A program made the position numbers and the translations under genes. From an uncultured Clostridia bacterium (GTDB lineage Bacteria; Bacillota; Clostridia; UBA1381): a stretch of 64,000 nt of DNA. The DNA lies in NCBI GenBank assembly GCA_947591315.1, contig CANQDD010000003.1, positions 1-64,000 on the forward strand, written 5' to 3'. The notes under the pieces were generated by a model. It worked only from the letters and a program-made list of their open reading frames with translations, did not search any database and was not told the origin of the DNA. Below are positions 32,302 to 49,980 of this stretch, one piece after another (the stretch's first letter is position 1; each line of letters begins with the position of its first letter).

Positions 32302-32587
32302 TTAATTCTCTCCTTTGTGTATTATTGCGTGTCATCAATATCACAGTTTCAACATGGCTCGATTGCTTCATCTTGATGTCGAGTGTGTAGCCAAATTCGC
32401 GTTCGTTCGCGGGAATTTATCAAAGCGTGTTTTCCCCTTAAAACACACCGATTTTTACCCTTGTACGTTCTCGGAAACAGGTCAAAGACCTTGCTCCTAC
32501 CTATAATATGCAAATCCACAGATTTGCCGACCGCTTCAAGACTTCGCTCTGAGGAAATAAGTCTGAAATCCCATCGCATCAACTCAC
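32302..32587. other. island-core junction spacer
   Basis: 286 bases between the PNPOx-like gene and the end of the defence operon. No gene, terminator or attachment repeat was recognised; it should contain the left edge of the variable region. Confidence 0.4.
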
Positions 32588-32800
32588 TCAGGCTTTATTT
32601 CCTCCACCACCATGCTTTCCCTTGGTAACAATAAATAGCGCGATACTGCCAACCGTGCCCACTGCACCTAATACGCCATTTCTAATATTTGCATTCCTTT
32701 CGCGTCTGCAATTATCACATAACTTGTGCTTATTCGTGCTTACAAGTTCGCATCCGCACTTCTTGCAGTAACGAATTTCTGGGTCTTTATTATTGCTCAT
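32588..32800 (-). CDS. small zinc-ribbon membrane protein
   Basis: 70 residues from ATG 32798-32800 (GGAGGTG 8 bases upstream). A zinc ribbon YCKKCG-18-LCDNC is followed by a Gly/Val-rich hydrophobic helix (GVLGAVGTVGSIALFIV) and a basic Gly-rich tail. It overlaps the end of the larger zinc-ribbon gene by 11 bases and is last in the operon. It may anchor a partner at the membrane; function unknown. Confidence 0.7.
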   Translation of the reverse strand: MSNNKDPEIRYCKKCGCELVSTNKHKLCDNCRRERNANIRNGVLGAVGTVGSIALFIVTKGKHGGGGNKA

Positions 32801-33923
32801 CAGAATCACCTCCGGTATGTTCTGTTTCTGCGGTCAACAGATTATGTACTGAATACTCAATTTGTGCCTTCGGATCAAAGGCTGTAATCCTCGCTGCAAT
32901 ATCGGTAAACTGATCAACTACTTCGATCCGCTTCTGAGAAGAATTCTCATTGAGCAACAATAATGTGTCTCGCTCATTAAGTTTATTTTCCACTATGAAG
33001 GATTTGAACTCCTCTAAGCATTCCTTGCACGGTTCATATTCTCCCAACATAGCGTATCCTTCACACTCGGTCTGCACAGAGTTGGTAATGTAAACAAGTG
33101 CCTGAAATGCGTCAATTGCCTTCCTGCTGACGTCTTTTTCTCCTTTGAAATCAAGCATCATTTGAAAATCAGACTTCTGGGAATGTTCGGTGATATGATA
33201 CATATTCTGAGAAAAGTTCCGCATCAATACTCGCTTTGCATCTGTCGCACTATGTATAACATCCAGCATAGCCGATTCTCTCAGCTTTGCATCCTGAATC
33301 AGCCTTGCCTGCATTAATTTATCCCTTGCTCCTTCTGCCATAGCAAGACGATCATTCTGCAGCTCTACGTGGATTTCTCTTATTGCATCACCGACATATT
33401 CTATTTCATCAAGAATCTGAGCCATTACCGCGTGCGTCGATAAGTTGTTTAAGGACTGTGTGAGATTAGGTGTCAAAGCCATGTCCTCAAGTCTCACCTG
33501 TTTAACAAATCCATCTGCGTAACGAATCGTTGGTAGTATTTCTCCCTGCTTATCAATGGTGAATCGATAGATTCCCTTATCTATTAGATCCTTCACATAG
33601 GAATCCATCTTAGCAACCATGATGTGATCCTTGCCTGCCATAGCTCCTATCACTTCTGCTATTGCAGGGAGCTTTACCTTGATATTTTCCCACTTACCAA
33701 AATACTGAATAAGACTCCTATTATCTTCATATGAGATAATGCTTAGCTCTCCGCGATTCGGCTGCCACTCTTCAATATCATATTCGAAGATCGGAACCAT
33801 CTCGTATTTGTCCTGCTCACTGATTGGCCTCTTTGGATCGGCACTTTGAAATCCACAATGCGGGCACTTCGTAGCTTTATCCGATATTTTTGTCCCGCAT
33901 TCCGGGCATAGTATTCTACTCAT
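32790..33923 (-). CDS. zinc-ribbon coiled-coil protein of unknown function
   Basis: 377 residues. The N-terminus is a zinc ribbon (LCPECGTKISDKATKCPHCG). A central, mainly helical part with ELQNDRLAMAEGARDKLMQAR and a further Cys pair CKECLEE near residue 315 follow. No enzyme motif is recognised. It starts 102 bases after the AIPR gene, across a long hairpin, and overlaps the small zinc-ribbon gene. It is the only gene of the island with no known defence relative. Confidence 0.7.
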   Translation of the reverse strand: MSRILCPECGTKISDKATKCPHCGFQSADPKRPISEQDKYEMVPIFEYDIEEWQPNRGELSIISYEDNRSLIQYFGKWENIKVKLPAIAEVIGAMAGKDHIMVAKMDSYVKDLIDKGIYRFTIDKQGEILPTIRYADGFVKQVRLEDMALTPNLTQSLNNLSTHAVMAQILDEIEYVGDAIREIHVELQNDRLAMAEGARDKLMQARLIQDAKLRESAMLDVIHSATDAKRVLMRNFSQNMYHITEHSQKSDFQMMLDFKGEKDVSRKAIDAFQALVYITNSVQTECEGYAMLGEYEPCKECLEEFKSFIVENKLNERDTLLLLNENSSQKRIEVVDQFTDIAARITAFDPKAQIEYSVHNLLTAETEHTGGDSDEQ

Positions 33924-33965
33924 TTATTCACGACCTTTCCTTTTTATTTGATGTTTCATAAGAGG

Positions 33966-34011
33966 CCTTGTAATTTTTGCGAATTAATCTTACTCGAAAA
34001 ATTTTGCAAGG
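33966..34011 (-). promoter_or_regulatory. long imperfect hairpin between AIPR and zinc-ribbon genes
   Basis: CCTTGTAATTTTTGCGA (from 33966) pairs imperfectly with TCGAAAAATTTTGCAAGG (to 34011). No T-run follows on the minus strand, so it may be a processing or weak pause site that lowers distal gene expression. Confidence 0.4.
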
Positions 34012-34025
34012 AAACCCTAATAGGT

Positions 34026-35774
34026 TTAGTCTGCACTCCAGCGGGATTCAAAATCATCATTTGACATTTTGAGACCCGTATTCAACTTGTCGAGTATATC
34101 CTTCCCACCGGGTGTCATTCTCACGGTCATCAGGTACTGCTTTACGGCAGTGCGGATATCACGCAAGGAGGCTTTTGCCTTAGTCCAGTTTGGAGGGCTA
34201 AACACCTTGTTGTTCTGACTTGCATCATCAAGTGCAATTTCAAAACCCATATTCAAACACTGACCGGCGAGTTCAATAACCGTATCAAGAAGGTCGTTGT
34301 CCTTGAGCTTTTGCATTGCAACTGCCGGATTCGGAACAAGATCCTGCATCTTATTGATTTCGCAGAATAGAACAGAAACAGCGAAAAGATGGTGATACGG
34401 AGCGTAAGCCTTAAGGGCTATCAAGACCTCGTTCAGTCCAAGCGGATTATCATTACCCCAGTTCTTATAAACCTCCTTGTAGAGATCAGAAAGCGCCTGA
34501 ACCTTTTCTGGACTATACTCTCTATGGAACAGCTGCTCGAAATACTTGTCGAATATTCTGCTCTCACTGTAGGAGATGGTAGGCCTCTGAGAGTGCCACG
34601 CAATCAGCTGTTTGCCGAGTGATGTCAGATCCACAATATGTGCTGTGTTGTATTTAACCGGATCAGCATTCTCTCCGCGTTTTGTAATGAAGTATCCGTC
34701 AGTAAAATGCTGTTCGTATGCCTTCTTCATCGCCAGAACATATTTGTCATTGCTCCTCAAATCACGAGCTTTTACAGCACTCTGGGAGTTAGTGCATGTG
34801 CTGATTTCATCTGCACGCTCTGCATTACTAATCTCATAAAAGCGGAACATTATATAAGCATCGCTGACATTGCGGACGGATTCACTGCAATTAAAGATCG
34901 TACTCAGGGATTGGCAGCCATTAACCACGTTCAATTCCTTTACGCTCATGGTTCCATTGACAATTTTGATAGACGAGCAAATTGCCGTTATTCCATTGTG
35001 AAGGAAAAAGAACTCCTCCGGATTATTTCGTAGTGTACGAGCGATTCCCTTATTAACCTTATTCCCGGTACCAAGAGACTGGCGTACATTTTTCCAGAAA
35101 AGTGTCCCGTCCTTGATGCCGGGAATCTTTATACACTCTTTCAGCGGAATAGCTGCGATAACAGCTCTTGTCGCGCCAATCTGCATCTCCATATATTTCC
35201 CTTGTTCAATTGAAAATTCATAATTGATATAGGGACGATTTCGATTCAATGCCTCGTCATATCTAGCCTGAAGAGTTTCATTGTCAACAAGCACAAGATT
35301 CGCGCTCAGAGTTTCGCTCTCCGCAAGTTCAGCCTGAAAAGCAGCCAGATCAGACTTAGCAGAATCTGTCAAACCGGATGTGGTAATCAGTTCAAAACAA
35401 ACCTCATAGTCGTCCTCTAAGGCTGTAGCAATCTCACTGATTTTTGCCTGCAGCTTTTCATTGGCCGCCTCCTGCAACTTTGCAAGATTCTTAATTTGAA
35501 TCCACGACGATGTTACCTCACGAAGAGGTTCTGCATCCACAGTGTCGCCTTTGTAAAACTTTCCCTGAATAATGTATATTGTCGAAGACTGATCATCGAT
35601 ATAAACCGCATCAATCTGCTTGTCTCCGGCTCCATCGGTAATGCAGGCTTTAGCCTCAAAGGTATCAAGGTTATGGATATTACGAAGGTACCAAGCAACA
35701 AACCGCTGCCCATCGTTGGGATAGTTCTTCACATAATATTCTTGTGCTATGTCATTCTTTATTTTCTCGTACAT
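34026..35774 (-). CDS. AIPR-family protein (abortive infection/phage resistance)
   Basis: 582 residues. The N-terminal 200 residues contain GAGDKQIDAVYIDD followed by IYIIQGKFYKGD, a D...QxK pattern of restriction-endonuclease-like folds. The central region carries the AIPR hallmark FFFLHNGITAICSSI, then LNVVNGCQSLSTIF. AIPR proteins accompany many defence loci, often next to restriction systems. The gene follows the Mrr-like gene by 34 bases in the same direction. Confidence 0.88.
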   Translation of the reverse strand: MYEKIKNDIAQEYYVKNYPNDGQRFVAWYLRNIHNLDTFEAKACITDGAGDKQIDAVYIDDQSSTIYIIQGKFYKGDTVDAEPLREVTSSWIQIKNLAKLQEAANEKLQAKISEIATALEDDYEVCFELITTSGLTDSAKSDLAAFQAELAESETLSANLVLVDNETLQARYDEALNRNRPYINYEFSIEQGKYMEMQIGATRAVIAAIPLKECIKIPGIKDGTLFWKNVRQSLGTGNKVNKGIARTLRNNPEEFFFLHNGITAICSSIKIVNGTMSVKELNVVNGCQSLSTIFNCSESVRNVSDAYIMFRFYEISNAERADEISTCTNSQSAVKARDLRSNDKYVLAMKKAYEQHFTDGYFITKRGENADPVKYNTAHIVDLTSLGKQLIAWHSQRPTISYSESRIFDKYFEQLFHREYSPEKVQALSDLYKEVYKNWGNDNPLGLNEVLIALKAYAPYHHLFAVSVLFCEINKMQDLVPNPAVAMQKLKDNDLLDTVIELAGQCLNMGFEIALDDASQNNKVFSPPNWTKAKASLRDIRTAVKQYLMTVRMTPGGKDILDKLNTGLKMSNDDFESRWSAD

Positions 35775-35808
35775 AATATTCCTCCGATTTATTGTCTATG
35801 TGAGAACA

Positions 35809-36726
35809 TCACTCATCCTGATATTCAGCCAAAGCATCCGTATCAATTGCCTTAATTTCAAACGTTTTCCGTGTTGACACACAGAAGTTATACTCAATCA
35901 TCAGATTAGCAAGTCTCTCACCATCAATCAAAATAATGTGATGAGTATTTGCGTAATCCTTAGCCTTCTGTGAAAACTTAGCTGTCGTAACGAAAAGTCC
36001 ATCGCCGTGCTTCCCGGCAATCGCACCTACAAAGCTCTGAATGTCCGGCTGGCCAACAACTCTATCTGGTGCCCATTCCTTAGCCTGCATATAAATCAAA
36101 GAGAATCCGAGCTTATCCTCCATGATGACTCCATCAATTCCATCATCACCGGAAGCGACTGTTGCATGACTTCCGTAAGCCACAGTTCCATAACCCATCT
36201 TTGAAAGAAGATCAACAACGAGCTTTTCAAAGGTGTATGGCGAGATTTTCAGAACCTCACTCAACAAATCAGATGCAAGGCTTGCATTGATCTGCTTATA
36301 TGCGTCTTCAAGTTGGTCATCGGGTGTAAGATTCGTCGGCTTTGAAATCGTAGACACCGTATCATCTCCATTTACAGGATCAGAGGCGGATGCAAAATCT
36401 ACAAACGAAGGAAACTGTTCCAGATATTTGGAGTCTATTTTCTCTGGATTTTCTGCAACTACTTTCTTTCCAGCTTCCGTAATGACAATAGTGGCGCGGG
36501 CAGGACTATCAAGTAGTCCAGCTTTTTTCAGATAAGTCTTCGCCCATCCGACCCTGTTTTTAAACACGGTTTGCCTACCGCTCGGAAGCATTTCTGCGAG
36601 GTCTTCTGCTGATAAATTTAGCTGTTGAGCTAACACGGCAGTAACGTCCTTAATTTTATAGACCTCACCGTCTTTTACTGCTACCAGTAAAGGCTTCATT
36701 AATTCATCGTATTTTGGCACTGCCAT
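35809..36726 (-). CDS. Mrr-like restriction endonuclease
   Basis: 305 residues from ATG 36724-36726 (GGAGGAGG upstream). N-terminal winged-helix part (YKIKDVTAVLAQQLNLSAEDLAEML...FKNRVGWAKTYLKKAGLL), then the catalytic domain: SPYTFEKLVVDLLSKMGYG, GDDGIDGVI and YMQAKEW (D...QxK). Mrr enzymes cut modified DNA in E. coli. In a cell with an active type I methylase its targeting would have to avoid self DNA; specificity is unknown. It starts 20 bases after the peptidase gene. Confidence 0.9.
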   Translation of the reverse strand: MAVPKYDELMKPLLVAVKDGEVYKIKDVTAVLAQQLNLSAEDLAEMLPSGRQTVFKNRVGWAKTYLKKAGLLDSPARATIVITEAGKKVVAENPEKIDSKYLEQFPSFVDFASASDPVNGDDTVSTISKPTNLTPDDQLEDAYKQINASLASDLLSEVLKISPYTFEKLVVDLLSKMGYGTVAYGSHATVASGDDGIDGVIMEDKLGFSLIYMQAKEWAPDRVVGQPDIQSFVGAIAGKHGDGLFVTTAKFSQKAKDYANTHHIILIDGERLANLMIEYNFCVSTRKTFEIKAIDTDALAEYQDE

Positions 36727-36746
36727 GGTTAGTCCTCCTCCTTGAC

Positions 36747-39302
36747 TCACTGAAGATCGGGATCGCTCCCCAGAGGAGGAATTCCGTTTTCTTTGAGCAT
36801 TTCATTTATTTCATAAATCGAATTCTCAGCACAGGCTCCTAATACGCATTGATAAACGTATCCCTCGCCCTTCATTGAATTTAATTTAAAGTCTGTTTTA
36901 CCGAGAAACATCTCAGCCTCTGGCAAAGGCAGCTTCAGACCTACGCATAAGGCAAGAACTGTCTGAACTGAAGTCGGGTACTCTTCATCGTTTCTCAAAC
37001 GCTGAATGGTTTTTTCTCCCACAAGAGAGCGGTCAGCCAGCTGCTTATTTGAGAGCTTCCTTTCCTTCTGCAGCGCTACCAGCGTCTCAGCAAAGGAACC
37101 GGGATATCTACGCATGGCCTCTGACCGGCGCTTTGCGTTCTTGATTTGCTCAAGAAGTGTCTTGTTGTGCGCATTAAGTTCAAAGGAATATTCAACCTGA
37201 TTTTCAACCGGTGCGGCATTCCGCATAAACTGCGTGTAATACCTTGCCCCTTGATATTTCGATTGATAGCTATACCCCTTCGAGAAGACGACGCAGCACT
37301 CATCCATGTGCGAGAGAGCATATTCTGACAGCGTAGCATTCCCAGACTGATCTCTCGCTATGTATTTCTTGTTATTGAGAACGAGATGACGATCTGCAAA
37401 AATAAACTGTCCGCTGTCAATCAGCTTCTTAAACTCACGATCAAAGCAGTACGCCTTAAACAAATCGGCATAGGGAATAGTGAACGTCTGATTCTTATCC
37501 AAGGCACCTGCTTCAAATGAATATCCGCGAACATACTGACCATCCACAAATGGATATGCGCCCTCGGCTTTGGAATATCCCAGATCCATCAGGCGAACCT
37601 TGGCGGCCTGTCTCGACACATCGAACAGTTCCGCAAGTTCATCAATGACATTCTCGTAGGCTGCAATGCTCGCATCATCAGCCCCGCCATAAACTGCAAG
37701 GAGCTGATCTGCCTTCAAGCGTATCGGTTTCGCAGGCATCAAGATTCTCGGAGCGACGCCATTGGCTTGCCACTCCATCCAGTCTACAGCCTTCCATTTA
37801 TCTGAATCCATGGAATTAGCGGCTATTTGACATTGAATTGCTTTTCCCAGATTATCATCGGCACCTATCATTTTCATCAGCACGTGGTATGGCTGATGAC
37901 GATGCCAATGAAAACACTCATGTGCCAGTGTAGTGCGCTTTGTTCCTACAGATCTCTCATAGGAAACACGCGGATCAAAATATACAGTTCCTCGTTTGGC
38001 ATTGCGAATTGTAATCTTCCGGTGCTTATCGAGAACATTCCCGTTATCAAATATGATAGTTCCAAAGTAAGTAAGATCATCTGACAAAGGGATATCTTCG
38101 ATAACCTGTAGTTTCATATCGCTGGCTATTGTCTCGATTGGAACCCTCATAGGTTTTTCCAACGCTTCAGGACAATACCTTGTTAGAAACTTCTCCGCCT
38201 CGTCTTCAAACTGTTCGCGGGAAATAATAGGTACAAGCTCTCCGGACAGACGGTCATTATCAGATTCCTCTTGCGGCTCACAATTATCAACAGACATGAT
38301 TCGGAACCCACTCATATCGATGCCAAGAGTAACCTGACAATGAATCTTCAGCCAGCGCTCATTAAAATATCCCTTGCGAGATGCGGACGGCATCTCGACA
38401 TCGCATGATGCAATTACATCGAAAGCAATCACACCATCCTCAAGCTGCTCAATATGGATAACATTCTCGATTTCCATATCAATGACCGACAGTCTTTTCG
38501 CGTCACCAGAATGCTCCTCTTGAATATAAGCTATGGCTGCATCCCGGATGTCATCATAACGGGATTGGTCGATCAGTTTCTGCAGTGGGCTTTCATCCTG
38601 CGCCTCATAGTAGTCCAGTCTGCTGTCGTTGAGTTCTTTACGAACCTCCCGCCAGTTTGGCATATACCTGTCCATGTGCGCGATGAATGTGGCGTCATGT
38701 TTTCTTGTAAGCAAATGCGTCAGTTCATGCAAAATAATATAGTCGAGGCAAGCATATGGCTTCTGAGCGAGCTGCAGATTAAACCATAGTTTCTTTTTAT
38801 CCGTGCTGCAGGCACCCCATTTTGTGACCATATATTTTGTTTGCCAAGAATCGCATTTAAGGCCTGTCTGTGCTTCCCACTTGGGCAGGCGCTTTTCTAT
38901 TTCTTCTTTCAGAATCTTTCGATATTCCTCTTTGACATAGGCATCCCGCTGCTTTACCGTGCTTTTGGCACTCATGGAAAGGACAATATTCTGGTTCTGA
39001 ATCTCGAAGCTGTTCTTCTGATTGTCCGGCTTAAAGACAAGGAAGTACTGCTTTCCCCAGATATACATCGTCTCACCGGAAACATACTGCCGCTTCGATG
39101 CCCTTGGCTGTTCCTGAAACTGCGCAATAGCCCTCTTGATAAAGCCCAGCTGAGTTCTGGCATAAGCCTCTATAGCTTTATCGTCCACGGATAAAGGCGC
39201 AGAAATTACCACATGTCCATCCGGCGGCTTCACCTGAAGGTGCATATTCTTTATATTCTTTTTTTGCACATCAATCGGAATCCCGGAAATGACAATGCGC
39301 AT
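36747..39302 (-). CDS. YgjP-type peptidase + ImmA/IrrE peptidase + XRE-like HTH fusion
   Basis: 851 residues with three recognisable parts. (1) Residues about 1-230: YgjP/DUF45 zinc metallopeptidase with VTKWGACS and HELTH (192-196) plus a downstream His in RKHDATF. (2) About 385-600: ImmA/IrrE-like domain with a second zinc motif HECFH (461-465) and DELAELFDVSRQAAKVRLMDLGY, the usual helical tail of that family. (3) About 735-815: an XRE-like helix-turn-helix (LVALQKERKLSNKQLADRSL, EEYPTSVQTVLALCVGL). YgjP peptidases often sit beside hsdR, and ImmA-type peptidases cleave repressors; joining both in one protein is unusual. The ATG overlaps the hsdR stop by one base. Confidence 0.88.
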   Translation of the reverse strand: MRIVISGIPIDVQKKNIKNMHLQVKPPDGHVVISAPLSVDDKAIEAYARTQLGFIKRAIAQFQEQPRASKRQYVSGETMYIWGKQYFLVFKPDNQKNSFEIQNQNIVLSMSAKSTVKQRDAYVKEEYRKILKEEIEKRLPKWEAQTGLKCDSWQTKYMVTKWGACSTDKKKLWFNLQLAQKPYACLDYIILHELTHLLTRKHDATFIAHMDRYMPNWREVRKELNDSRLDYYEAQDESPLQKLIDQSRYDDIRDAAIAYIQEEHSGDAKRLSVIDMEIENVIHIEQLEDGVIAFDVIASCDVEMPSASRKGYFNERWLKIHCQVTLGIDMSGFRIMSVDNCEPQEESDNDRLSGELVPIISREQFEDEAEKFLTRYCPEALEKPMRVPIETIASDMKLQVIEDIPLSDDLTYFGTIIFDNGNVLDKHRKITIRNAKRGTVYFDPRVSYERSVGTKRTTLAHECFHWHRHQPYHVLMKMIGADDNLGKAIQCQIAANSMDSDKWKAVDWMEWQANGVAPRILMPAKPIRLKADQLLAVYGGADDASIAAYENVIDELAELFDVSRQAAKVRLMDLGYSKAEGAYPFVDGQYVRGYSFEAGALDKNQTFTIPYADLFKAYCFDREFKKLIDSGQFIFADRHLVLNNKKYIARDQSGNATLSEYALSHMDECCVVFSKGYSYQSKYQGARYYTQFMRNAAPVENQVEYSFELNAHNKTLLEQIKNAKRRSEAMRRYPGSFAETLVALQKERKLSNKQLADRSLVGEKTIQRLRNDEEYPTSVQTVLALCVGLKLPLPEAEMFLGKTDFKLNSMKGEGYVYQCVLGACAENSIYEINEMLKENGIPPLGSDPDLQ

Positions 39303-42300
39303 TAATACTCCTCCTGCTTCTCAATGATCTTATAGATGCGTTCCACCTCGGAGTCATCACCCAGAATCTCAAAGAGAGCCTTTTTTATTCTTCTGACAAC
39401 CACCTGATTATCCCTGAAACCAGACAGTGCCTGCTTTTTCACGGCCTTGTGAATGCGAAGAGCAAGTTTCTCGTCCTCGCCGGTGTTGTCATAAATGGCC
39501 ATGAGCGCTTTGCTCTTACGGATGCTTTCCGGATATTTATCGTTATCCTCCGGGCAATCAACATCCTTAGCCAGCTTTATATATTTCTCAAGCATCTCAG
39601 CGTAGTCAAGAACTCCCTGCTTACGCTCTTCGATGAGCTTATCAAGGATTTCTGACATCTTTGCGTAATAGCGTGGATTGACGGTAACCTTTTCGATAAC
39701 CTTCTTACGGATGTTATTCTCGATGGCCTCTGCTGCACCTTCCTTGTGGCCGCTATCACCTTCACCGGTAAGCGTTTCACCCTGTTTTGCTACGAAATCC
39801 AATAGGGTAAGATCATCAAAATCGCCAATCTTCTCAGCATCCGCTGCCGTGATATAGTTATCGATCATCTTTCTCATATCAGGCTCATAGGCCTTCAAAT
39901 CGAGGAAATCACCACTGGCCGTACCGATGGTTTTCTTCAACTCAATGTAGAAAGTGACCTTCTTGTCATATTCATTCAGTTTGCCAGATGAGATATCATC
40001 AACCAGATATGGCTTTGCTTCCGCGAAAGCTCTGACAAGACTGCTCACCAGACGATAGAGTTTTTCTCTCAGGCGTGCATAAATCTCGTCGCTCTCCTCC
40101 GACTGACCGGAAACACCACAGAAATAATGGATGTACTGGATCTCCCCACGAGGTTCCTCGACGCCTTCGCAGAGCTCTTCGACGGCATCATACACTTCCT
40201 CAAAATAGGATACCGTAGCATCATGGCGATCCTTAACAAGTCCTTTTACATCCTCCGGATCATATCCTTCAAAAGCGCCGGAAGTATAATCTTTCATTGC
40301 AGTCTGGAGCTGTCCAAACAGCTGCTTGTAATCCACGATATAGCCGAAGTCCTTACTATCATCATCGAGACGGTTGACGCGACAAATCGCCTGAAACAGG
40401 CCATGATCCTGCATCCTCTTGTCGATGTAAAGGTAGGTACAAGGAGGCGCATCAAATCCGGTGAGCAGCTTGTCCACGACAATAAGGAGCTTCATATTTG
40501 CAGGCTCCTCTACAAACTTCCGCTTTGCTTCTTTTTCAAATTCCTCCACCTTGGCCTGAACCGAGCCTGTATTCGGAAGGTCAGAAGGATCAAGCCCCAG
40601 CATCTTCAAATACGTCTCGTATTTGAGGAAGGTTTCAGTATCATCCTCATCGCTGACGGTATCAGTGCGCAGTTCGCCCTTGTTCGGTGTATAGGAAGAT
40701 ATGATGGCGCACTTTTTAAAGCCCATCTGTTGGAAGATTTCGTAATACTTACAAGCCGTAGGAATACCATCAGCTACAAGAATCGCATTACCGTTTCCAT
40801 CCATCAGACGCGGCTTCATATTAAAGTCCTGAATGATGTCCCACGCCACCTTTTCAAGACGAGAGCGGGAGCTATATACCTTCTGCATCGTGCCCCACTT
40901 CTCTTTGAGCTTTGCCTTAGCGCGAGAAGAGAGGCCTCTGGTCTTTACATCAAACCACTGGTCAACTCGATCCTGTGACGACAAATCTTGTGGAACATCA
41001 CGGTATTCATATCGCAAATCCAGCACGACGCCATCAGCAACGCCTTCGTTATATTTGTAAGCATGGATGTATGTACCGAAAACTTCAATACTAATTTTTT
41101 TATCCTTTTTCAGCAACGGAGTACCCGTAAAGCCAATAAATACAGCATTCGGCATGATAGTCTTCATCGCCGTATGGAGCTTACCGGACTGCGTTCTGTG
41201 GCATTCGTCAACAAATACTACAAGATTTCCCTTTGCCTTGAAATCGGTAGGGAGGGAGGCTTTCAGCTCTTCAATATACTTATCGTAGTCATTTTCTGTC
41301 GCTTCTCCGCCACGACGGCCAAACTTATGCACGAGGGAGCAGATCAGCGAATCATCATATACATTCAAACGATTCAGCAAATCCTTACCGCTCTTGGTAC
41401 GAGCGATATTCTCATCCACGCCAGTGAATGTTTTTTCTATTTGCTCATCAAGCTCATCTCGGTCTGTTACGATAAGGACACGAGCATTAAGCTCCGCCCA
41501 ATGTGTCAGAATCCACTTTGCAAGCCATACCATTGTCAGCGTTTTGCCGGAACCCTGCGTATGCCAAAGAATACCGCCCATCGGTTTATCCGGATCTCTG
41601 TTCGGATTGTGAAGCTCCGTCCTCAGATTATTAAGCCTCTGCTGAGTGCGCTTGATGCCAAAATACTGATTGTAGCGGCACACCTTTTTGATGCCTTTAT
41701 CAAAAACAACGAAATTCATGATAAGGTCGATAAAACGTTCCTTATCGAACATGGCATATATCTGCTTCAGGAGTTTATTCTCGATGCCTTCGCAGGTTTC
41801 ACTGATACGAATATCTACGGGATCACGCTCCTCCTCATGTTCTTTGAAGCCGTCATCCTTCCACTCCATATAGAACTTTTCTCCAGTCAGAAGCGTGCCG
41901 TAGCGCAGGCCTTCTGATTCGTTTCCCGCCATGCAAAATTGCATCGTGGAAAAGAAGCCCTGTATGAATGAATTTTTTTGATTCGTCAGATTCTGGCGGA
42001 TACCCTCAGAGACTGAGATGCTACTTCGCTTCAACTCAATAACAGCAACAGCAATACCGTTCAGATAAACAACAAGATCCGGTCTCTTCTCGGACTGTTC
42101 AACGACCGTCACTTCCTCGGCGATAGCAAAGTCATTGTTCAACGGATTCTCTTCATCAATAAGCTGAACAGTCACCGGAGGCTTTTCAGGACTTTCGCTA
42201 ACCGGAATACCGTACTTTAAGCGAGAGTATACGGTTTTATTTGCGTCATATAACCCGCGTGAAAGATTTCCCGCTTCCTGTTGAAGCTGCATAACAGCAG

Positions 42301-42481
42301 CATCAATCAGTTTGTCTGCATAGCCCTTCAGTCGAAGATACTGGCGCAGACGATCTTCCTTGATGTTCTTATTCTGATAATCCGACAGGTTACCGATATA
42401 CTGATAGCCCAAGATCTCAGGATCTTTAAAGAAGCGGATCACTCTTTCCTGTGTTTTGATTTCGGCATCTCCAATACTCAT
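39302..42481 (-). CDS. hsdR: type I restriction enzyme R subunit
   Basis: 1059 residues, normal length. N-terminal nuclease: RPDLVVYLNG and AVAVIELKRSS (D...ExK). SF2 translocase: Walker A HTQGSGKTLT near residue 310, Walker B VFVDECHRTQ, and FIGFTGTPL. Late motifs LIVVDKLLTGFDAP and ICRVNRLDDD are present. C-terminal helical part binds HsdM/S. Starts 15 bases after hsdS. It translocates and cuts unmethylated DNA after HsdS recognition. Confidence 0.95.
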   Translation of the reverse strand: MSIGDAEIKTQERVIRFFKDPEILGYQYIGNLSDYQNKNIKEDRLRQYLRLKGYADKLIDAAVMQLQQEAGNLSRGLYDANKTVYSRLKYGIPVSESPEKPPVTVQLIDEENPLNNDFAIAEEVTVVEQSEKRPDLVVYLNGIAVAVIELKRSSISVSEGIRQNLTNQKNSFIQGFFSTMQFCMAGNESEGLRYGTLLTGEKFYMEWKDDGFKEHEEERDPVDIRISETCEGIENKLLKQIYAMFDKERFIDLIMNFVVFDKGIKKVCRYNQYFGIKRTQQRLNNLRTELHNPNRDPDKPMGGILWHTQGSGKTLTMVWLAKWILTHWAELNARVLIVTDRDELDEQIEKTFTGVDENIARTKSGKDLLNRLNVYDDSLICSLVHKFGRRGGEATENDYDKYIEELKASLPTDFKAKGNLVVFVDECHRTQSGKLHTAMKTIMPNAVFIGFTGTPLLKKDKKISIEVFGTYIHAYKYNEGVADGVVLDLRYEYRDVPQDLSSQDRVDQWFDVKTRGLSSRAKAKLKEKWGTMQKVYSSRSRLEKVAWDIIQDFNMKPRLMDGNGNAILVADGIPTACKYYEIFQQMGFKKCAIISSYTPNKGELRTDTVSDEDDTETFLKYETYLKMLGLDPSDLPNTGSVQAKVEEFEKEAKRKFVEEPANMKLLIVVDKLLTGFDAPPCTYLYIDKRMQDHGLFQAICRVNRLDDDSKDFGYIVDYKQLFGQLQTAMKDYTSGAFEGYDPEDVKGLVKDRHDATVSYFEEVYDAVEELCEGVEEPRGEIQYIHYFCGVSGQSEESDEIYARLREKLYRLVSSLVRAFAEAKPYLVDDISSGKLNEYDKKVTFYIELKKTIGTASGDFLDLKAYEPDMRKMIDNYITAADAEKIGDFDDLTLLDFVAKQGETLTGEGDSGHKEGAAEAIENNIRKKVIEKVTVNPRYYAKMSEILDKLIEERKQGVLDYAEMLEKYIKLAKDVDCPEDNDKYPESIRKSKALMAIYDNTGEDEKLALRIHKAVKKQALSGFRDNQVVVRRIKKALFEILGDDSEVERIYKIIEKQEEY

Positions 42482-42496
42482 CCGACAGGCACCTCC

Positions 42497-43756
42497 TTAT
42501 ATCAATCTGACCTTGCCGGTCAGCAATTCTTCCATCATACCTTGTTTCATAGCTTTATATTTCAAGCATTTCTTTTCTAAGGATAGTATGTCGCCTTCCA
42601 TATCTGCCAATGTTTGAGCTATTTCAACCTGATCCTCATACGGAGGCAGCTCGATTTCTGTTTGGCTAAAATAATCCTTGGAAAGGTTAAATCTCGTAGC
42701 TCCTTGAGCCAATACCCGCATAATTTTTCTTCCTTCTTGACTGTTAAAATAGTAAGAGAAAAACAACGCATGTACTTTCTTCGTTTTTAATCGAAAACCG
42801 AAGCAGAAGCTGTTTAGATAAGTATTTCTTATAGAGTCCATCAATACGGCGCACATTCCAACTTCTTCCGGCGTTTCTGACGAGGTATTAAAAAACAAAT
42901 CACCCTTTAACACCTCATTCTGATACTCATCCTCATTTACTTGCACAGATTCAAGTTTCGATATATCTATGACCGTATTGTCTAAGACGTTGAGAAATGT
43001 AATATATCTTGCATTCCCTTTGCCGAAATCATCTTTCGACTTTCTAGTTAGTCCACTATAGAAGTCTCCTATATCCCCAATCACATATTTCTCCCATAAG
43101 GAATCTGATATGCGTATTTTTTCAGAGAGCAAACTTTGCATTGCCCCAGTAAAAATGTTCCGTTTTTTCTTTATGAGTTTTTCAAGGTCATAAATGAGTG
43201 CCTCGATATCACTTATTGCTTCGACAATAAACTTCTGTTCTTCGATGGACGGTCTTGGAATACGGATTTCCAGCAAACGCTCCTTCGATATGTTTTTCAT
43301 ACTGTTACTTGTACCTGTAGCAACAGCATGTATAGCATTTTTATACCTATACTGATTCAATAAGTAATTTAGCCAGCGAAAGTCATACTTCTCCGGCTTG
43401 CTATTTACCACTTGCCATAACCTGTCTGGCAAAAAATAACCCTTGGCGTCTTCAGCTACATACCCGCACGCACCTACTAATTGTGGAGTGTTCATCCTGC
43501 TTATGATGATGCTTCCTCTTTTTACCGGACATTTAAGACGCGCATACTCCTTTTTGACTACAGGCTTAGCCTCATCTATGTTGATAAGACCATCAAAAAT
43601 TGCAGATGTCTTCAAAACAAAGAAATCCGCATTTTGCCTTTCATCTGAATTTACACTTACTCCAGCTTCAAGGTTTTGAAAAGCGTCTGATAGTGAGGTC
43701 ACATCCCATTCCTCTGGAATAGATCCTATTTCTGTTCCTTTATATTTGCTTACCAT
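42497..43756 (-). CDS. hsdS: type I restriction enzyme S subunit
   Basis: 419 residues with two target-recognition domains (about 1-170 and 210-380), each followed by a conserved helix: LPRPSIEEQKFIVEAISDIEAL-like and LPPYEDQVEIAQTLADMEGDILSLEKK. TRD1 starts IGSIPEEWDVTSLSDAF. Sets the DNA sequence recognised by the complex. It overlaps hsdM by 7 bases. No inverted second hsdS or recombinase lies next to it, so no phase variation is apparent. Confidence 0.93.
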   Translation of the reverse strand: MVSKYKGTEIGSIPEEWDVTSLSDAFQNLEAGVSVNSDERQNADFFVLKTSAIFDGLINIDEAKPVVKKEYARLKCPVKRGSIIISRMNTPQLVGACGYVAEDAKGYFLPDRLWQVVNSKPEKYDFRWLNYLLNQYRYKNAIHAVATGTSNSMKNISKERLLEIRIPRPSIEEQKFIVEAISDIEALIYDLEKLIKKKRNIFTGAMQSLLSEKIRISDSLWEKYVIGDIGDFYSGLTRKSKDDFGKGNARYITFLNVLDNTVIDISKLESVQVNEDEYQNEVLKGDLFFNTSSETPEEVGMCAVLMDSIRNTYLNSFCFGFRLKTKKVHALFFSYYFNSQEGRKIMRVLAQGATRFNLSKDYFSQTEIELPPYEDQVEIAQTLADMEGDILSLEKKCLKYKAMKQGMMEELLTGKVRLI

Positions 43757-46416
43757 TTAAATCCCATCCTTTCCAGATGAGACTTCACCTTGGCCTCATA
43801 CTCAGTTGTATCTTTATTAAGTTCCGGAAGCGTATTTTCATAACGCTCAGCAAGCTCGATAATCCTATTTGTCAAGCGATGGGATATCGCCGCGTATAGA
43901 TCAGCTATGCCTGAGAAGATGCTGTCAAACCACTTCTTGTTCACCAGCAGATCCAGAATCTCTTCATCTGTCAGGCTGTCATACCTTGCCCTGCACTTCT
44001 CATCAAGCGCCTTGTTCAGATCCTTTACAACCTTGTTATAGTCGGACACTTTGCCACAAAGATCTAAAGCCTGTCTGAGTTGATTTACATCATCCTGCAA
44101 GCTTTCCGGCACGCTCTCTACTGTACGAATAATAAATAGGCGCAGCATGATAGAAGATTTTGTAACAGTTCCTTTTTCTGTTACAGCGCTTTCGCAAAGC
44201 GGGTGTCCCACCAGATATGCCTTAAGACGCTTTTTCTGCATAGGAAGTTGATCCATCAGGAGCTCCAGCTCTATGGTTTCCTCCGTCTCTACATGCTGAG
44301 TGAGTTCCTCAATCTTGGCTTCTAAGTCCTTAGCCTTGACTTTTCCGTTCTCAGCCACATCGGCAAGAGCAGATTCCTCATCGGCGCTCTCAATCAGATC
44401 AGAAAGCTGGGATTCCGTTTCTGCGACAACGTTCTCGGCTTCCTCTATGGCATTCTTCTCCTCGCGGAAGAAGGCATCTATCACGATGGCCTTTGGAATC
44501 AATCTTCCTTCCCAGCCAGCGATCTTCATTTCACCCTTGTTTTTACCCTGTGTGATTTCTTCTTCAATGTTGTCGGTCGCTCTAGCATTGGCGTAACCAT
44601 CCGGTTCACTTATGATAAGCGACACGTCATCGTTCATGACCTCATTCCAATAAGCCAGCAGCACTTGATACACGTCGTATTTATCAATCAGCGTCAGGTG
44701 TTCAAATTCAGCAAGGATATCCTCCGCAAGGCTAACGATTAACTCTCTCGCGGATACATCTTCATCAAGGGAAGATAAAGTGGGATATTCCTTGGCCTTC
44801 CATGCTGCAAAAGCCTCATCGAGTTTCTCACCGTATTCTGAGAACTCGGCGTTTTTATATATCGTCTGACGGATATTTTCATGCTCCACATTCAAGCTGT
44901 AATACTTTTCGCTAATCGCCGTCAGCAACTCAGCCTTCAGCGAAGGGAACACATCCCAATACTTAGACAAACTGTCAATATCAAACGCCGGAATACCGCC
45001 ATGAATATGCGCATAGATATCCTGAATATCCTCCGGATCTGTGGAGTCAATATAGCGAGTGATGTTCAGGTTATACCTGTTTTTCTTTTCAATTTCGTCG
45101 TTTGGTACGAAACGTGCAAACTTTGGATCTGTAGTTATCTGCTCATTAAATGTCGTAATGATTCTATAGATATCACGTTCACGCAAACGATTCTTGTTAC
45201 CGTCCTTAACGTACCCACGGCTGGCATCAATCATAAAGATGCCCTGTCGGTTTGCAGCGCCTTCTTTATCAATCACGAGTACGCAGGCGGCTATGCCGGT
45301 GCCGTAAAACAAATTTGCCGGAAGGCTGATAATGCCCTTGATCCAGTGCTTCTTTATAATTGCTTCTCTAATAGTCGCTTCGGCATTTCCACGGAACAGA
45401 ACGCCATGAGGGAGAATAACCGCAGCCTTGCCATTTGACTTCAATGCTTTAAGGATATGCATGAGCCAAGCATAGTCGCCGTTCTTTTCCGGTGGCGTGT
45501 CCCCATAGCCCTCGAAGCGACCATATTCTTTACCGGCAATACCATCGCGCCAATTCTTCATAGAGAAGGGCGGATTTGCCACTATGTAATCGAAACGTTC
45601 AAGTATGGAGGATTTATCAAGATACTGCGGATTTGAGAATGTGTTACCGCTCTTGATGGTAATCTCGGCCTTACGATGCAGGACGGCATTCATCTTCGCC
45701 AGACCAGCTGTCGTGCTTTCCTTTTCTTGACCATATCCCATGATCGGGATAGGAGCTGCATCAATGGCTCGAATTAATAGGCTGCCACTTCCACATGCCG
45801 GATCGCATACCGTGGCGCTGGTGTCCGTGCAACGGCTGATTCCCACTACATTGGCGAGGATTCTGGAAACCTCTGCAGGTGTATAGAATTGTCCCTTGCT
45901 CTTTCCACTTTCTGTAGCGAATTTGCGCATCAAATATTCGTAGGCGTCTCCGATGATGTCATCACCTTCAGCCTTATTCCGGGAGAAGTCGAGTTCCGGG
46001 CGCTGGAAGATGGATATGAGATCGGTCAATTTATCAACCATTTCCTTACCGCTCCCCAGCTTCTTCTCATCATTAAAATGAGCAATATCAATAACACCCT
46101 TCAGGTCAGTATTCTCGTCAGCAAGGCGTGCTATGATTTTATCCATACCTTCGCCGATGTTTTTCTTTCCCTTCAGAGCAATAAAGTCATCAAAGGAGCA
46201 GCCCGTCCGTTTCTCCGGATCGGGATCTTTATCATGTGCCTTATCAAAGACCTTAATGTCTTCATAGGCTCCTTTATTCTTAAATTTATCGGTGACATAC
46301 TTCATGAACAAAAGTGTCAGGATATAGTCCTTATACTCTGAAGAATCCATGCCTCCGCGAAGTTTGTCACAGCTCGCCCACAGCGATGCATATAATTGCG
46401 TTTTCTTGACAGCCAT
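43750..46416 (-). CDS. hsdM: type I restriction enzyme M subunit, long form
   Basis: 888 residues against the usual 480-550. The N-terminal helical domain (LWASCDKLRGGMDSSEYKDYIL) and adenine methylase core are intact: SAM motif VCDPACGSGSLLIRA and catalytic NPPF in YIVANPPFSMKNW. Beyond about residue 520 there is an extension of about 350 residues rich in acidic coiled-coil (ENVVAETESQLSDLIESADE, then EAKIEELTQHVETEE). Long HsdM forms exist in Firmicutes. Overlaps hsdS; preceded by a small HTH gene. Confidence 0.94.
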   Translation of the reverse strand: MAVKKTQLYASLWASCDKLRGGMDSSEYKDYILTLLFMKYVTDKFKNKGAYEDIKVFDKAHDKDPDPEKRTGCSFDDFIALKGKKNIGEGMDKIIARLADENTDLKGVIDIAHFNDEKKLGSGKEMVDKLTDLISIFQRPELDFSRNKAEGDDIIGDAYEYLMRKFATESGKSKGQFYTPAEVSRILANVVGISRCTDTSATVCDPACGSGSLLIRAIDAAPIPIMGYGQEKESTTAGLAKMNAVLHRKAEITIKSGNTFSNPQYLDKSSILERFDYIVANPPFSMKNWRDGIAGKEYGRFEGYGDTPPEKNGDYAWLMHILKALKSNGKAAVILPHGVLFRGNAEATIREAIIKKHWIKGIISLPANLFYGTGIAACVLVIDKEGAANRQGIFMIDASRGYVKDGNKNRLRERDIYRIITTFNEQITTDPKFARFVPNDEIEKKNRYNLNITRYIDSTDPEDIQDIYAHIHGGIPAFDIDSLSKYWDVFPSLKAELLTAISEKYYSLNVEHENIRQTIYKNAEFSEYGEKLDEAFAAWKAKEYPTLSSLDEDVSARELIVSLAEDILAEFEHLTLIDKYDVYQVLLAYWNEVMNDDVSLIISEPDGYANARATDNIEEEITQGKNKGEMKIAGWEGRLIPKAIVIDAFFREEKNAIEEAENVVAETESQLSDLIESADEESALADVAENGKVKAKDLEAKIEELTQHVETEETIELELLMDQLPMQKKRLKAYLVGHPLCESAVTEKGTVTKSSIMLRLFIIRTVESVPESLQDDVNQLRQALDLCGKVSDYNKVVKDLNKALDEKCRARYDSLTDEEILDLLVNKKWFDSIFSGIADLYAAISHRLTNRIIELAERYENTLPELNKDTTEYEAKVKSHLERMGFKW

Positions 46417-46464
46417 CTTTGTCTGCTCCTTGTCTAATGATTTTCTTCGATTTTCCCCTCTGAA

Positions 46465-46659
46465 TCAGTCAGCGCTTTTACCGTTCTTAACCCATTCATC
46501 GAGTTCGGAAATTTTAAACTTCCACTGTTTTCCGATTTTTTGAGCAGGCAAACCTTCTTTACCATTTCTGATCCAGCTGCGAAGAGTAACTGTTTTGATT
46601 CCTAAATATTCCGCAGCTTCATCTATGCTTATCCATTTGTCATTCATGATTTCTTCCAT
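46465..46659 (-). CDS. small MerR/excisionase-type HTH protein
   Basis: 64 residues. WISIDEAAEYLGIKTVTLRSWIRNG is a winged helix-turn-helix of the excisionase/BldC type. GAGGTGAG lies 6 bases before the ATG. It is the first gene of the hsd operon, 48 bases before hsdM, and reads from the promoter at 46704-46732. A role as regulator of the operon is likely by position; an excisionase role for the island is the alternative. Confidence 0.85.
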   Translation of the reverse strand: MEEIMNDKWISIDEAAEYLGIKTVTLRSWIRNGKEGLPAQKIGKQWKFKISELDEWVKNGKSAD

Positions 46660-46703: not shown

Positions 46704-46732
46704 AGTATACACCATAAATGTGATTTTTTCAA
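46704..46732 (-). promoter_or_regulatory. promoter of the defence operon
   Basis: Minus strand TTGAAA (46727-46732), 17-base spacer, TATACT (46704-46709). No other comparable promoter was seen inside the operon. Confidence 0.7.
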
Positions 46733-46789
46733 TAGTTTTCTGTTATTTGTTGATATTATTTTTTATTTGTGCGTTCTCAAGATTCCCTG

Positions 46790-46818: not shown

Positions 46819-47026
46819 GCCCATTTTTCAATATAAAGCTCATCTTGGCCTTCTTGTTTCTGCCTATCAGCACTGCAAAAACGGACATGCCTGTGTCTGA
46901 GGTTCCGATCCCTAAAAATGGCATACTTGCTTTAGCACGTGGGAGCCATCTGCGCAGGGTGTTTCCGGTTCCACGTGACTACCGATGACAATCAAATACT
47001 GTACCGATCACCGGAAGTGAGGTGCA

Positions 47027-47103
47027 GCCGAAATGGAGTAATCCTTCGGTATGCCCTCACACCTGTGGTCTGGTTTTGCATGTCTGGAGCTCTCCATTTC
47101 GGC
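47027..47103 (+). promoter_or_regulatory. 12-bp stem in the leader of the sigma-like gene
   Basis: GCCGAAATGGAG (47027-47038) pairs perfectly with CTCCATTTCGGC (47092-47103). Directly after, AAAGCC and GGCTTT can close a small hairpin whose loop holds the GAAGGAG ribosome site. Both folds may control translation of the gene at 47128. Confidence 0.45.
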
Positions 47104-47127
47104 AAAAGCCGAAGGAGGGCTTTCATT

Positions 47128-47640
47128 ATGCAAAACAATGACAATCAGAAGACCTATTTTATCTACGTTCGAAGCACCAGCGAAAAGGTGCCGGTCACTA
47201 AGGAACAACACGACTCCTTCTATAAGGAAGCCGACCGTATTCGTCACAAGGAACAGGATCACGGCAGGTGCATGTGTCCTTACCGCTTCATCTGGAAATG
47301 TGACGGCGACTGCATCGGCTGCGAATACCATGCAGCAGGTGACATTACTTCTCTGGATCAGCCTCTCCCTGATGGCAACGGCACCCTCGGTGACTATATT
47401 CCCGACCGCAGCAAGCCGATGGAGGAAGTCGTCGCCGACCGCATGCTGCTGGAGCAGCTCTTTGCCAGACTGCGCGAGCTCGACCCAGAGGCTGATACCA
47501 TCATTCAGCTTTGGAAGGATCACCCGGAGGGCATCTCCGACCGTGCTATTGCAAGAGAACTCGGTCGCCCGCAGAAGACCTTCGCGGATCAGATGAAGAA
47601 GTATCGCACCGACCTGCGCAGGATTACCGGCGATAAGTAA
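47128..47640 (+). CDS. sigma-70 region 4-like regulator
   Basis: 170 residues from ATG 47128. N-terminal part with a Cys cluster (GRCMCPYRFIWKCDGDCIGC) and a C-terminal region-4-like helix-turn-helix: VVADRMLLEQLFARLRELDPEA, then GISDRAIARELGRPQKTFADQMKKYR. Proteins of this type occur at the left end of prophages and conjugative elements in Lachnospiraceae-like bacteria. Likely an early regulator of the element. Confidence 0.75.
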   Translation: MQNNDNQKTYFIYVRSTSEKVPVTKEQHDSFYKEADRIRHKEQDHGRCMCPYRFIWKCDGDCIGCEYHAAGDITSLDQPLPDGNGTLGDYIPDRSKPMEEVVADRMLLEQLFARLRELDPEADTIIQLWKDHPEGISDRAIARELGRPQKTFADQMKKYRTDLRRITGDK

Positions 47641-47796
47641 TACCAAGACCACGAACCACACCCTTTCCGGCCACTGTCCCACTTTCGGATGGCGGTCGGA
47701 AATTTTTATAAAATCCTCCGCTCAAATCGGCAGTTCATCTCCAGTGGAAGGTGAAGGCAAGAGAACACAGCCTTCAGAAAGCGAGGTGAACAACAG

Positions 47797-48003
47797 ATGA
47801 TTCGCAGTTACGCAGACACCGGCGGCAACGTGAACGAGTAGATCAAGCTCCTGCATTCCATCAGTCACGTATCCGCCAGACTGACAAGGAACCTCTCACT
47901 CCTTGCCGCAAGCCAATCCGAGGAAGGAGGAAAAGAAAATGTCAAAGATGGCAGAAATGGCACAGACCATCGAAGAGCTCCGCACCGCTGCTGCTTCTAT
48001 TAA
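47797..48003 (+). pseudogene. small phage gene interrupted by TAG
   Basis: ATG 47797 with GAGGTG upstream encodes MIRSYADTGGNVNE and then TAG at 47839. The same frame continues IKLLHSISHVSARLTRNLS to a TAA at 48001. The two halves read as one protein broken by a single-base nonsense change. The 3' half overlaps the next gene in another frame. Confidence 0.6.
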
Positions 48004-48268
48004 TGCCGCAGCCGACTGGCTCTACCAGCAGTTTTCCGGTGATGACAACAAAGCGCAGGTCACGGAGACTCCCACCAAGAAGGAAACGAAGCCTGAACTC
48101 AAGCTGGAGGACGTAAGAGCCGTCCTTGCTGAGAAGTCCCGCGCCGGTCATACCGCAGAAGTACGCTCCCTGCTCCAGAAGTACGGTGCTGCAAAGCTCT
48201 CGGAGATCGATCCGGCAAACTACGAAGCCCTGATGAAGGACGCGGAGGTGATCGGCAATGGCAGCTAA
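47939..48268 (+). CDS. phage protein of unknown function
   Basis: 109 residues from ATG 47939 (GGAGG 9 bases upstream). Helical N-terminus (MSKMAEMAQTIEELRTAAASI), Lys/Glu linker, and a C-terminal small domain (LEDVRAVLAEKSRAGHTAEVRSLLQKYGA). It overlaps the DUF2800 gene by 11 bases, as its relatives do in other prophages of this type. Could be a recombination accessory protein; not proven. Confidence 0.75.
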   Translation: MSKMAEMAQTIEELRTAAASINAAADWLYQQFSGDDNKAQVTETPTKKETKPELKLEDVRAVLAEKSRAGHTAEVRSLLQKYGAAKLSEIDPANYEALMKDAEVIGNGS

Positions 48269-49397: not shown

Positions 49398-49962
49398 AAA
49401 TGTAAAAATCAGCAATCCCATGAAGGTTATCACCGGTGTTGACACTCGCTGGAGCTATGCGAACGTCTGGGAGCCAAAGTCTATCAACGGCGGCACTCCC
49501 AAATACAGCGTGAGCCTCATCATTCCAAAGTCCGACACCAAGACCATCGCCAAGATTCAGGCTGCTATCGAGGCTGCCTACAAGGAGGGCGAGGCCAAGC
49601 TCAAGGGCAACGGCAAGTCCGTTCCGGCGCTCTCTGTTTTGAAGACACCTCTGTGCGATGGCGATGCAGAACGTCCGGACGACGAGGCCTACAAGAATGC
49701 TTACTTCGTCAACGCCAATGCAACCTCTGCACCCGGCATTGTGGACGCAGACCTGAATCCGATTCTCACCCGCTCTGAAGTGTACAGCGGCGTGTACGGC
49801 AGAGCCAGCATTACGTTTTATGCTTTCAACTCTTCCGGCAATAAGGGAATCGCCTGCAGGCTCAACAACCTGCAGAAGATCCGCGACGGTGAGCCTCTCG
49901 GCGGCAAGGCAAGCGCTGAGTCTGACTTTGCTACTGACGACGATGAAGATTTTCTCAACTAA
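49390..49962 (+). CDS. DUF2815 ssDNA-binding-type protein
   Basis: 190 residues from ATG 49390, overlapping the DUF2800 stop by 8 bases. Contains GVDTRWSYANVWEPKSINGG and ITFYAFNSSGNKGIACRLNNLQ, with an acidic tail (ATDDDEDFLN) as in single-strand binding proteins. Probably acts in phage replication or recombination. Confidence 0.87.
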   Translation: MSKNVKISNPMKVITGVDTRWSYANVWEPKSINGGTPKYSVSLIIPKSDTKTIAKIQAAIEAAYKEGEAKLKGNGKSVPALSVLKTPLCDGDAERPDDEAYKNAYFVNANATSAPGIVDADLNPILTRSEVYSGVYGRASITFYAFNSSGNKGIACRLNNLQKIRDGEPLGGKASAESDFATDDDEDFLN

Positions 49963-49980
49963 GGAAAGGAGCGCAAAACT

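Follow-up and report, generated by a model that had tools for sequence, protein, structure and literature searches.

A nine-gene restriction operon from an uncultured Clostridia bacterium combines, as far as comparison with its relatives indicates, a conserved core with an exchangeable cassette. The operon lies on the minus strand of a 64,000-nucleotide stretch of contig CANQDD010000003.1 (hereafter the window, whose positions are used throughout; L numbers denote loci of relatives and G numbers genomes). Its core consists of a small helix-turn-helix (HTH) gene, hsdM, hsdS, hsdR and the gene for a fused peptidase here called PEP. The swapped cassette occupies a slot bounded by PEP and one end of a mobile element and begins, in the window, with an Mrr-type type IV restriction enzyme. 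A first-pass annotation made from the DNA letters had listed nine minus-strand open reading frames (ORFs) with their families, and all nine were found where it placed them, in the following order:

46465..46659, minus: excisionase/MerR-type HTH protein, 64 amino acids (aa), first gene of the operon (HTH_17, E 2.3e-15)
43750..46416, minus: hsdM, 888 aa (N6_Mtase and HsdM_N in Pfam; MTase_I in PADLOC)
42497..43756, minus: hsdS, specificity subunit, 419 aa (Methylase_S in Pfam)
39302..42481, minus: hsdR, 1059 aa (SWI2_SNF2, T1R_D3-like and HSDR_N)
36747..39302, minus: PEP, 851 aa, fused double peptidase with HTH (YgjP, Peptidase_M78 and a sub-threshold HTH_3 in Pfam; fold matches)
35809..36750, minus: MRR, Mrr-type type IV restriction enzyme, first slot gene (Mrr_N and Mrr_cat; mREase_IV in PADLOC, 271 bits)
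34026..35774, minus: AIPR/AbiU-type protein with an N-terminal Mrr_cat-like stretch, part of a mobile module (Pfam, PADLOC)
32790..33923, minus: ZR377, N-terminal zinc ribbon followed by long helices (Pfam; low-confidence model, predicted local distance difference test score 53.5)
32588..32809, minus: ZR73, small four-cysteine zinc-ribbon protein with a hydrophobic segment (alignment of six loci)

The type I domains of HsdM, HsdS and HsdR are all present (TIGR00497 scores 254.7 against a cut-off of 242.75, TIGR00348 507.7 against 284.55), and restriction and methylation are the predicted functions. MRR exceeds the cut-offs for both Mrr_N (110.6 bits) and Mrr_cat (104 bits) and is predicted to cleave modified DNA. 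The 64-aa HTH gene heads the operon in every relative that extends that far, L110 excepted. Spacings between the genes agree with those first reported, overlaps of 1–11 bases or gaps of 15–102 bases, provided that ZR73 starts at an inner ATG (32800). The start of MRR is to be revised: a GTG overlapping the PEP stop had been proposed, and the ATG at 36726 is more likely because a strong AGGAGGAGG ribosome site stands just 3' of that stop. A sequence search of the PDB gave no matches for PEP, AIPR or MRR.

Scanning with the peptidase gave at least 79 loci in genome contigs and at least 79 more in viral sequences, and 21 loci with an intact PEP, the window included, were drawn from those listed. 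HTH–hsdM–hsdS–hsdR–PEP is complete in 17 of the 21; the core is cut by the contig in L005, L006 and L014, and in L110 the matches do not include the HTH or the start of hsdM. One of the loci, L002, is from Agathobaculum desmolans ATCC 43058. The first cassette gene of at least 90 aa is of type IV in 17/21 loci, as typed with local profiles built from Pfam-identified slot genes: Mrr in the window, L002, L003, L006 and L008; Mrr_cat in L005, L016 and L018; GmrSD in L004, L010, L012, L014, L015, L019 and L110; and McrBC in L111 and L112. Pfam identified GmrSD in L004, L008 (there as second gene), L010, L014 and L015, Mrr_cat in L016 and L018, and McrB/McrC in L111 and L112.

By contrast, none of 15 loci in which the peptidase is YgjP-only, HTH-less or split had a type IV gene among the genes listed within 9 kb, a difference that Fisher's test puts at 7e-7 if kinship is ignored. 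A later control row, L242, likewise lacks one (0/1). Up to nine genes of at least 90 aa were considered per locus, and Pfam on the first genes of the controls covered L023, L037, L207, L212, L215 and L028. The control rows are not independent (L207 and L208 are alike), the stretch downstream is short (1.8–2.8 kb) in L207, L024, L037 and L211, and in L037 the match is confined to PEP residues 1–189 within a 478-aa ORF. The 21 and 15 exclude L007 and L025, whose contigs end within 0.4 kb, and L020 and L021, in which PEP is broken (L021 with GmrSD, L020 with a McrB relic); the later control rows exclude L244 (0.7 kb left) and L241 and L243 (YgjP not adjoining hsdR).

The slot has changed its occupant repeatedly. 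A quick tree of the 21 peptidases calls for no fewer than 12 changes of slot label and for three in the presence of a type IV gene. Cores 94–98% identical to that of the window in HsdR and peptidase hold GmrSD (L004, L019) or McrBC (L111). DNA homology of L004 and L019 to the window ends 11 bases beyond the PEP stop and resumes at 32331–32585, as it does in L008 and L110. In L111, a decayed GmrSD start (12576–12689; 38 aa, 47%, E 4e-5, with an internal stop) lies ahead of McrBC, and in L020 a 115-aa McrB piece (7790–8200, 85%) directly follows the broken PEP and precedes the element-end tail; type IV genes have therefore been replaced or lost in place. hsdS, with best-segment identities of 21–97% among relatives, varies independently of the slot: L021 has a 95% identical hsdS yet GmrSD, and L003 a 30% identical hsdS yet the slot of the window. 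The fixed set of eight to nine genes first envisaged thus does not hold. Comparison of neighbourhoods with and without hsdMSR shows the Mrr, AIPR and zinc-ribbon genes to be exchangeable, so that PEP belongs to the core and Mrr is just one type IV enzyme among several that fill the slot. The exchangeable slot holding the last four genes, the double metallopeptidase with its HTH and the location in a rumA element had all gone unseen in the first-pass annotation.

Several cassettes carry further genes. In L010 (14446–18262), the slot GmrSD is followed by two GTPase genes matching LeoBC and LeoA in PADLOC, and in L004 (13719–15087) by genes resembling those for a SUKH immunity protein and a Tox-GHH nuclease. 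YgjP-only relatives have extra genes between hsdS and hsdR (L205 14517–15965, L206 14315–16123, L207 5668–6453, L208 14303–15088), where the RRDM island of enteropathogenic Escherichia coli (EPEC) has DarTG2; this interval is possibly a second slot. L209 (10319–11465) is eroded: short ORFs that overlap are what remains of the HsdM start and the PEP C terminus, and next come a 294-aa gene and a 979-aa gene that is GmrSD-like by eye.

The cassette ends where the element ends, and three further features mark this element:

32331..32585, minus: element end and 3' border of the slot, with a copy of the rumA 3' end (attachment site, att) at about 32335–32365 (DNA matches)
46939..57050, plus: divergent module of the element, with genes for DUF2800, an Enc34-type single-stranded DNA (ssDNA)-binding protein, DUF5906, an SNF2 helicase and serine recombinase
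58789..60045, minus: rumA-type uracil-5 methyltransferase gene, whose 3' end is the other element border (Pfam tRNA_U5-meth_tr/TRAM)

The rumA C terminus HVETVVLMSR reappears as HVETVILMTR at the left end of the element, and the same-genus genomes G342, G048 and G195 match the right side of the window only from 58802–58816 onward. Because the rumA tail is duplicated at the left end and same-genus homology starts at the rumA border, the operon is most likely cargo of a ~26-kb element (about 32.3–58.8 kb) inserted at rumA, with the slot beside one att. A rumA tail also ends L003, L004, L006, L008, L019, L110 and L200 before their sequences part, and contains TTGATGTCA in five of these seven. In streptococci, rumA is a target of serine-integrase integrative and conjugative elements (PMC4701971; statements from this and the other cited papers concern the parts of their text that were available). 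An empty rumA site was not found: the left flank matched two of six genomes (that of the window, and a 200-bp piece at 69%), and the right flank all six, outside the genome of the window almost only through the rumA gene itself. The conserved 250-bp 3' border was considered as an RNA and rejected, proving to be the element end with the rumA tail; its folding z is −0.95, it has one match in the genome, and an Rfam search of 30500–48000 gave no match there and one chance-level snoRNA elsewhere.

Beyond the type IV gene, AIPR, ZR377 and ZR73 appear on sequence comparison to be an additional, independently mobile module, because they are found without the core and are missing from near-identical cores. 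Strong matches to ZR377 (E < 1e-150) occur in 5/391 genomes of the class, three of them without the core in the fetched stretch (L200, L201, L202); at 1e-5 there are 10/391, three of these matching in the zinc ribbon only, and none was found in plasmids. ZR377 stands beside a Schlafen/AlbA gene and a gene rumA-like by eye in L200, and with ZR73 ahead of an hsdR from another subfamily in L201 and after an AlwI-type gene in L202; a distant zinc-ribbon pair follows GmrSD in L203. ZR377 and ZR73 form a two-gene unit in L201, L202, L203, L226, L227 and the window (32588–33923), with AlwI-type, type I, GmrSD and other genes as neighbours, and the ZR73 cysteines C15, C18, C31 and C34 are invariant in 6/6 aligned loci, each adjoining ZR377.

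AIPR has 1e-50 matches at three places in 2/391 genomes of the class. In L189, AIPR, ZR377 and ZR73 follow a DNA-methylase and helicase pair (Pfam) with no type I core, and in L239 AIPR is behind such a pair by eye. G076 carries the slot of the window, on a contig that begins at hsdR, and a second AIPR copy beside rumA and behind 709-aa and 958-aa genes, by eye the DNA-methylase and helicase genes of L189. Pairing of AIPR with restriction–modification (R-M) systems, type III included, has long been known (PMC3506569).

PEP itself is composite. Residues 20–226 are a YgjP peptidase, ~242–345 a possible NTF2-like stretch, ~351–608 a CapP/PprI-fold peptidase (a fold match; M78 with HExxH) and 734–804 an XRE-type HTH resembling CapH, DdrO and C proteins (likewise a fold match; HTH_3 scores 19.9 bits in Pfam, under the cut-off of 23). 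Both HExxH motifs are invariant in 16/16 full-length rows; H461 and E462 belong to that of M78. No YgjP structure was among the 50 fold matches listed, which residues 734–804 dominated, and this is not evidence against the YgjP domain. Because only part of the candidates in each genome were scored, the counts of fused, full-length PEP are lower bounds: at least 2/391 genomes of the class and at least 1/388 of a draw from the phylum, namely that of the window.

M78–HTH also occurs apart from YgjP. The peptidase matched 60 phage records, 38 of them from Streptococcus, and in 19 of the 20 phage records among the matches listed the M78–HTH part alone was matched. Proteins of ~630 aa with M78 and HTH and without YgjP occur in phage records (H32–H50) and in L030, L033 and L036, and in L204 hsdR is followed by YgjP and M78–HTH as separate genes that overlap. 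Scanning viral sequences with an alignment of PEP found no further fused PEP, and near DNA matches to the operon were absent from the phages and plasmids searched.

Upstream of the operon, two elements recur:

46704..46732, minus: shared promoter TTGAAA-17-TATACT (10/12 match; arrangement recurs in relatives)
46741..46757, minus: 17-bp box AATATCAACAAATAACA, directly 5' of the -35 hexamer, a candidate operator (conserved in relatives)

The promoter had been proposed at these positions. It is present and its arrangement recurs; the promoter scan taken alone is no better than chance (35 sites versus 27.6 ± 4.8 in shuffles). The box is unique within the window and present with up to two mismatches in 19/20 aligned relatives (four in L018). 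A TTG follows it by 8–9 bases in 19/20 (L008 being the exception) and TATA[ACT]T by 30–32 bases in 19/20 (37 in L016). Because L028 keeps the box while its peptidase lacks an HTH, the box more probably serves the small HTH of the first gene than PEP, as far as its distribution tells. A hairpin GCCGGACACAACAATGTCCGGT with a T run lies at 46789–46810, in the interval that separates the core operon from the divergent module, and a similar palindrome, CCGGACA...TGTCCGG, is upstream of many relatives.

How might these parts work together? We tentatively favour, at just short of an even call, a mobile modular defence operon in which HsdMSR is the front line, an exchangeable type IV enzyme the second line and PEP a single-chain controller. 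This reading builds on the gene order, the domains and folds, the recurring promoter and box, the intact catalytic motifs, the repeated type IV exchange at one place and the location at the end of the rumA element; from these we infer the DNA target, the cleavage, the ssDNA trigger and the layering against phage. HsdMSR would methylate the DNA of its own cell and cut unmodified incoming DNA, and the type IV nuclease in the slot, here Mrr, would handle phages whose modified DNA escapes HsdR. The XRE HTH of PEP would hold down expression of the operon until ssDNA from infection or restriction activated its CapP/PprI-like peptidase, which would then cleave either PEP or a partner, thereby raising expression, that of the type IV nuclease included. 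Such control would limit the risk of Mrr attacking host DNA methylated by HsdM. More doubtful is the self-cleaving variant, in which PEP would be a one-chain, ssDNA-triggered repressor coupling type I to whichever type IV nuclease is plugged in: single strands produced by HsdR or phage would lead PEP to destroy its own DNA-binding end, and the operon would be turned up.

Three suggestions of the first-pass annotation bear on this reading. The operon as a multi-layer defence array is supported; the peptidase as a candidate regulator gains from its CapP/PprI-like middle and its CapH/DdrO/C-protein-like C terminus, which are parts of DNA-damage-triggered derepression switches; and the idea of a second layer is fitted by the position of PEP, which has the type I genes on one side and another nuclease on the other. 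Its further suggestions, that the peptidase might release nucleases and that the zinc-ribbon pair might have a membrane role, are conjectural.

A number of points weigh against our favoured reading. A type IV gene is missing from four loci with intact PEP (L009, L011, L013, L017). Common descent may account for part of the association of fused PEP with type IV, because the loci are related and the control loci more distant, and the profiles used for typing the slot derive from slot genes themselves. PEP sits mid-operon, whereas CapK+CapS adjoins the promoter of its operon, and the 64-aa first gene is a second HTH gene in the operon. The box persists with two mismatches in L028, where the YgjP-only peptidase has no HTH. 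Fused PEP is rare, and M78–HTH without YgjP is common in prophage-like elements, beside replication modules; the HTH of PEP may regulate the mobile element.

The strongest competing explanation, which we regard as a real possibility if somewhat improbable, is an ordinary cargo bay: a defence hotspot between the last core gene and att, with the type IV link a by-product and PEP no controller. Seven loci (window, L003, L004, L006, L008, L019, L110) have a cassette reaching to the end of the element, cassettes also hold genes that are not type IV (LeoA/LeoBC relatives, SUKH, Tox-GHH, a Macro domain, AIPR, HNH), defence hotspots are known at fixed places of phages and satellites (PMC9122126), and rumA is used by streptococcal serine-integrase elements (PMC4701971). 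A mere bay fits less well with the type IV gene standing first behind fused PEP in 17/21 loci, with only three changes of type IV presence against at least 12 slot changes, or with its occurrence in 0/15 loci without an HTH-bearing fusion, one of which, L215, is also beside rumA-like and element genes (by eye, from ORF starts).

It is improbable, in our judgement, that the M78–HTH part of PEP controls the element, namely excision or replication of the DUF2800 module, in the manner of ImmA/ImmR, its R-M location being incidental. Standalone M78–HTH relatives do stand beside DUF2800-like/SSB/PolA-like modules (L030, L033, L036; by eye), the phage matches listed are mostly to this part, and the core promoter and the DUF2800 module of the window are divergently oriented; however, M78–HTH is here fused to YgjP, which directly follows hsdR in relatives, and the fusion travels with hsdMSR. 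Joint action of Hsd, PEP, Mrr, AIPR and the zinc-ribbon pair as one composite system would fit the single strand, short spacings, one visible promoter and the same gene order in L003 (full) and L006 (from hsdR on), but is very improbable given AIPR and/or ZR377/ZR73 without the core in L189, L200–L203, L226, L227 and L239, and the 94–98% identical cores without AIPR or zinc ribbons (L004, L019, L111).

Type I and type IV systems are opposite filters, for unmodified and modified DNA, and can conflict, since methylation of the host's own DNA may itself become a target of a type IV enzyme. Repeated replacement of type IV genes behind one peptidase–repressor fusion thus offers a natural swap set for questions of compatibility and switch-on. 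The operon also connects the CapH/CapP idea with ordinary restriction operons, and the att-proximal slot of a rumA element is one route by which defence layers are assembled.

Each ingredient has relatives among known systems: type I with type IV, regulator–hsdMSR–M48 and CapH/CapP are already in print. The E. coli immigration control region has the order mcrBC–hsdSMR–mrr. This E. coli-type region and that of Listeria resemble our operon in placing type I beside type IV of the Mrr or McrB type, and in Listeria type I was never found without type IV (PMC10059834); here, by contrast, the genes form one co-oriented operon, in which a double peptidase–HTH fusion gene separates type I from type IV and one slot for exchange, which GmrSD may also occupy, lies at a mobile-element end. 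The EPEC RRDM island, ordered RptR–hsdM–hsdS–DarTG2–hsdR–M48 peptidase (PMC12255303), likewise starts with a small regulator, has hsdM, hsdS and hsdR with a zinc peptidase after hsdR, and builds in extra defence genes; the window operon matches its order of regulator–hsdM–hsdS–hsdR–M48/YgjP peptidase. Its extra genes lie between hsdS and hsdR, and the available text does not mention a second peptidase and an HTH joined to its peptidase. Membership of RRDM was rejected: hsdS and hsdR are adjacent, with a 15-bp gap and no DarTG2 between them, and the RptR palindrome TAGCTA is absent from the promoter, its sole occurrence in the window being at 37267. MADS (equivalog scores of 52.9 of 80 bits for MAD1, 47 of 720 for MAD2 and 28 of 400 for MAD5) and MZA (50.6 of 1050 for MzaE) were also rejected.

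P2/P4 anti-phage hotspots similarly gather defence genes of high turnover at a single site of a mobile element (PMC9122126); the slot here stands behind a conserved type I operon and mostly opens with a type IV gene. The kinase–STAS controller system also sandwiches a controller between front-line R-M and a second system, with a kinase–STAS pair in place of the peptidase–HTH fusion and CBASS, Bub or DUF4747 downstream in place of type IV enzymes. A YgjP–CapP–CapH-like fusion, or a type IV slot behind it, was undescribed in the literature searched, which mostly excluded subscription papers and bioRxiv preprints, a silence that is weak evidence of absence.

Closest to PEP are CapH+CapP (PMC13373217) and PprI–DdrO (PMC10904395), which have a CapP/PprI-fold peptidase with HExxH and an XRE-type HTH. 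Those are two proteins, whereas PEP is one 851-aa chain with YgjP in front, encoded mid-operon. By analogy with CapP/CapH and PprI/DdrO, repression by PEP would be relieved by ssDNA-stimulated proteolysis. A possible role for such regulators in coordinating R-M with later systems is put forward in the CapP/CapH paper (PMC13373217), and the PEP locus has a controller-like gene just where such coordination would place one.
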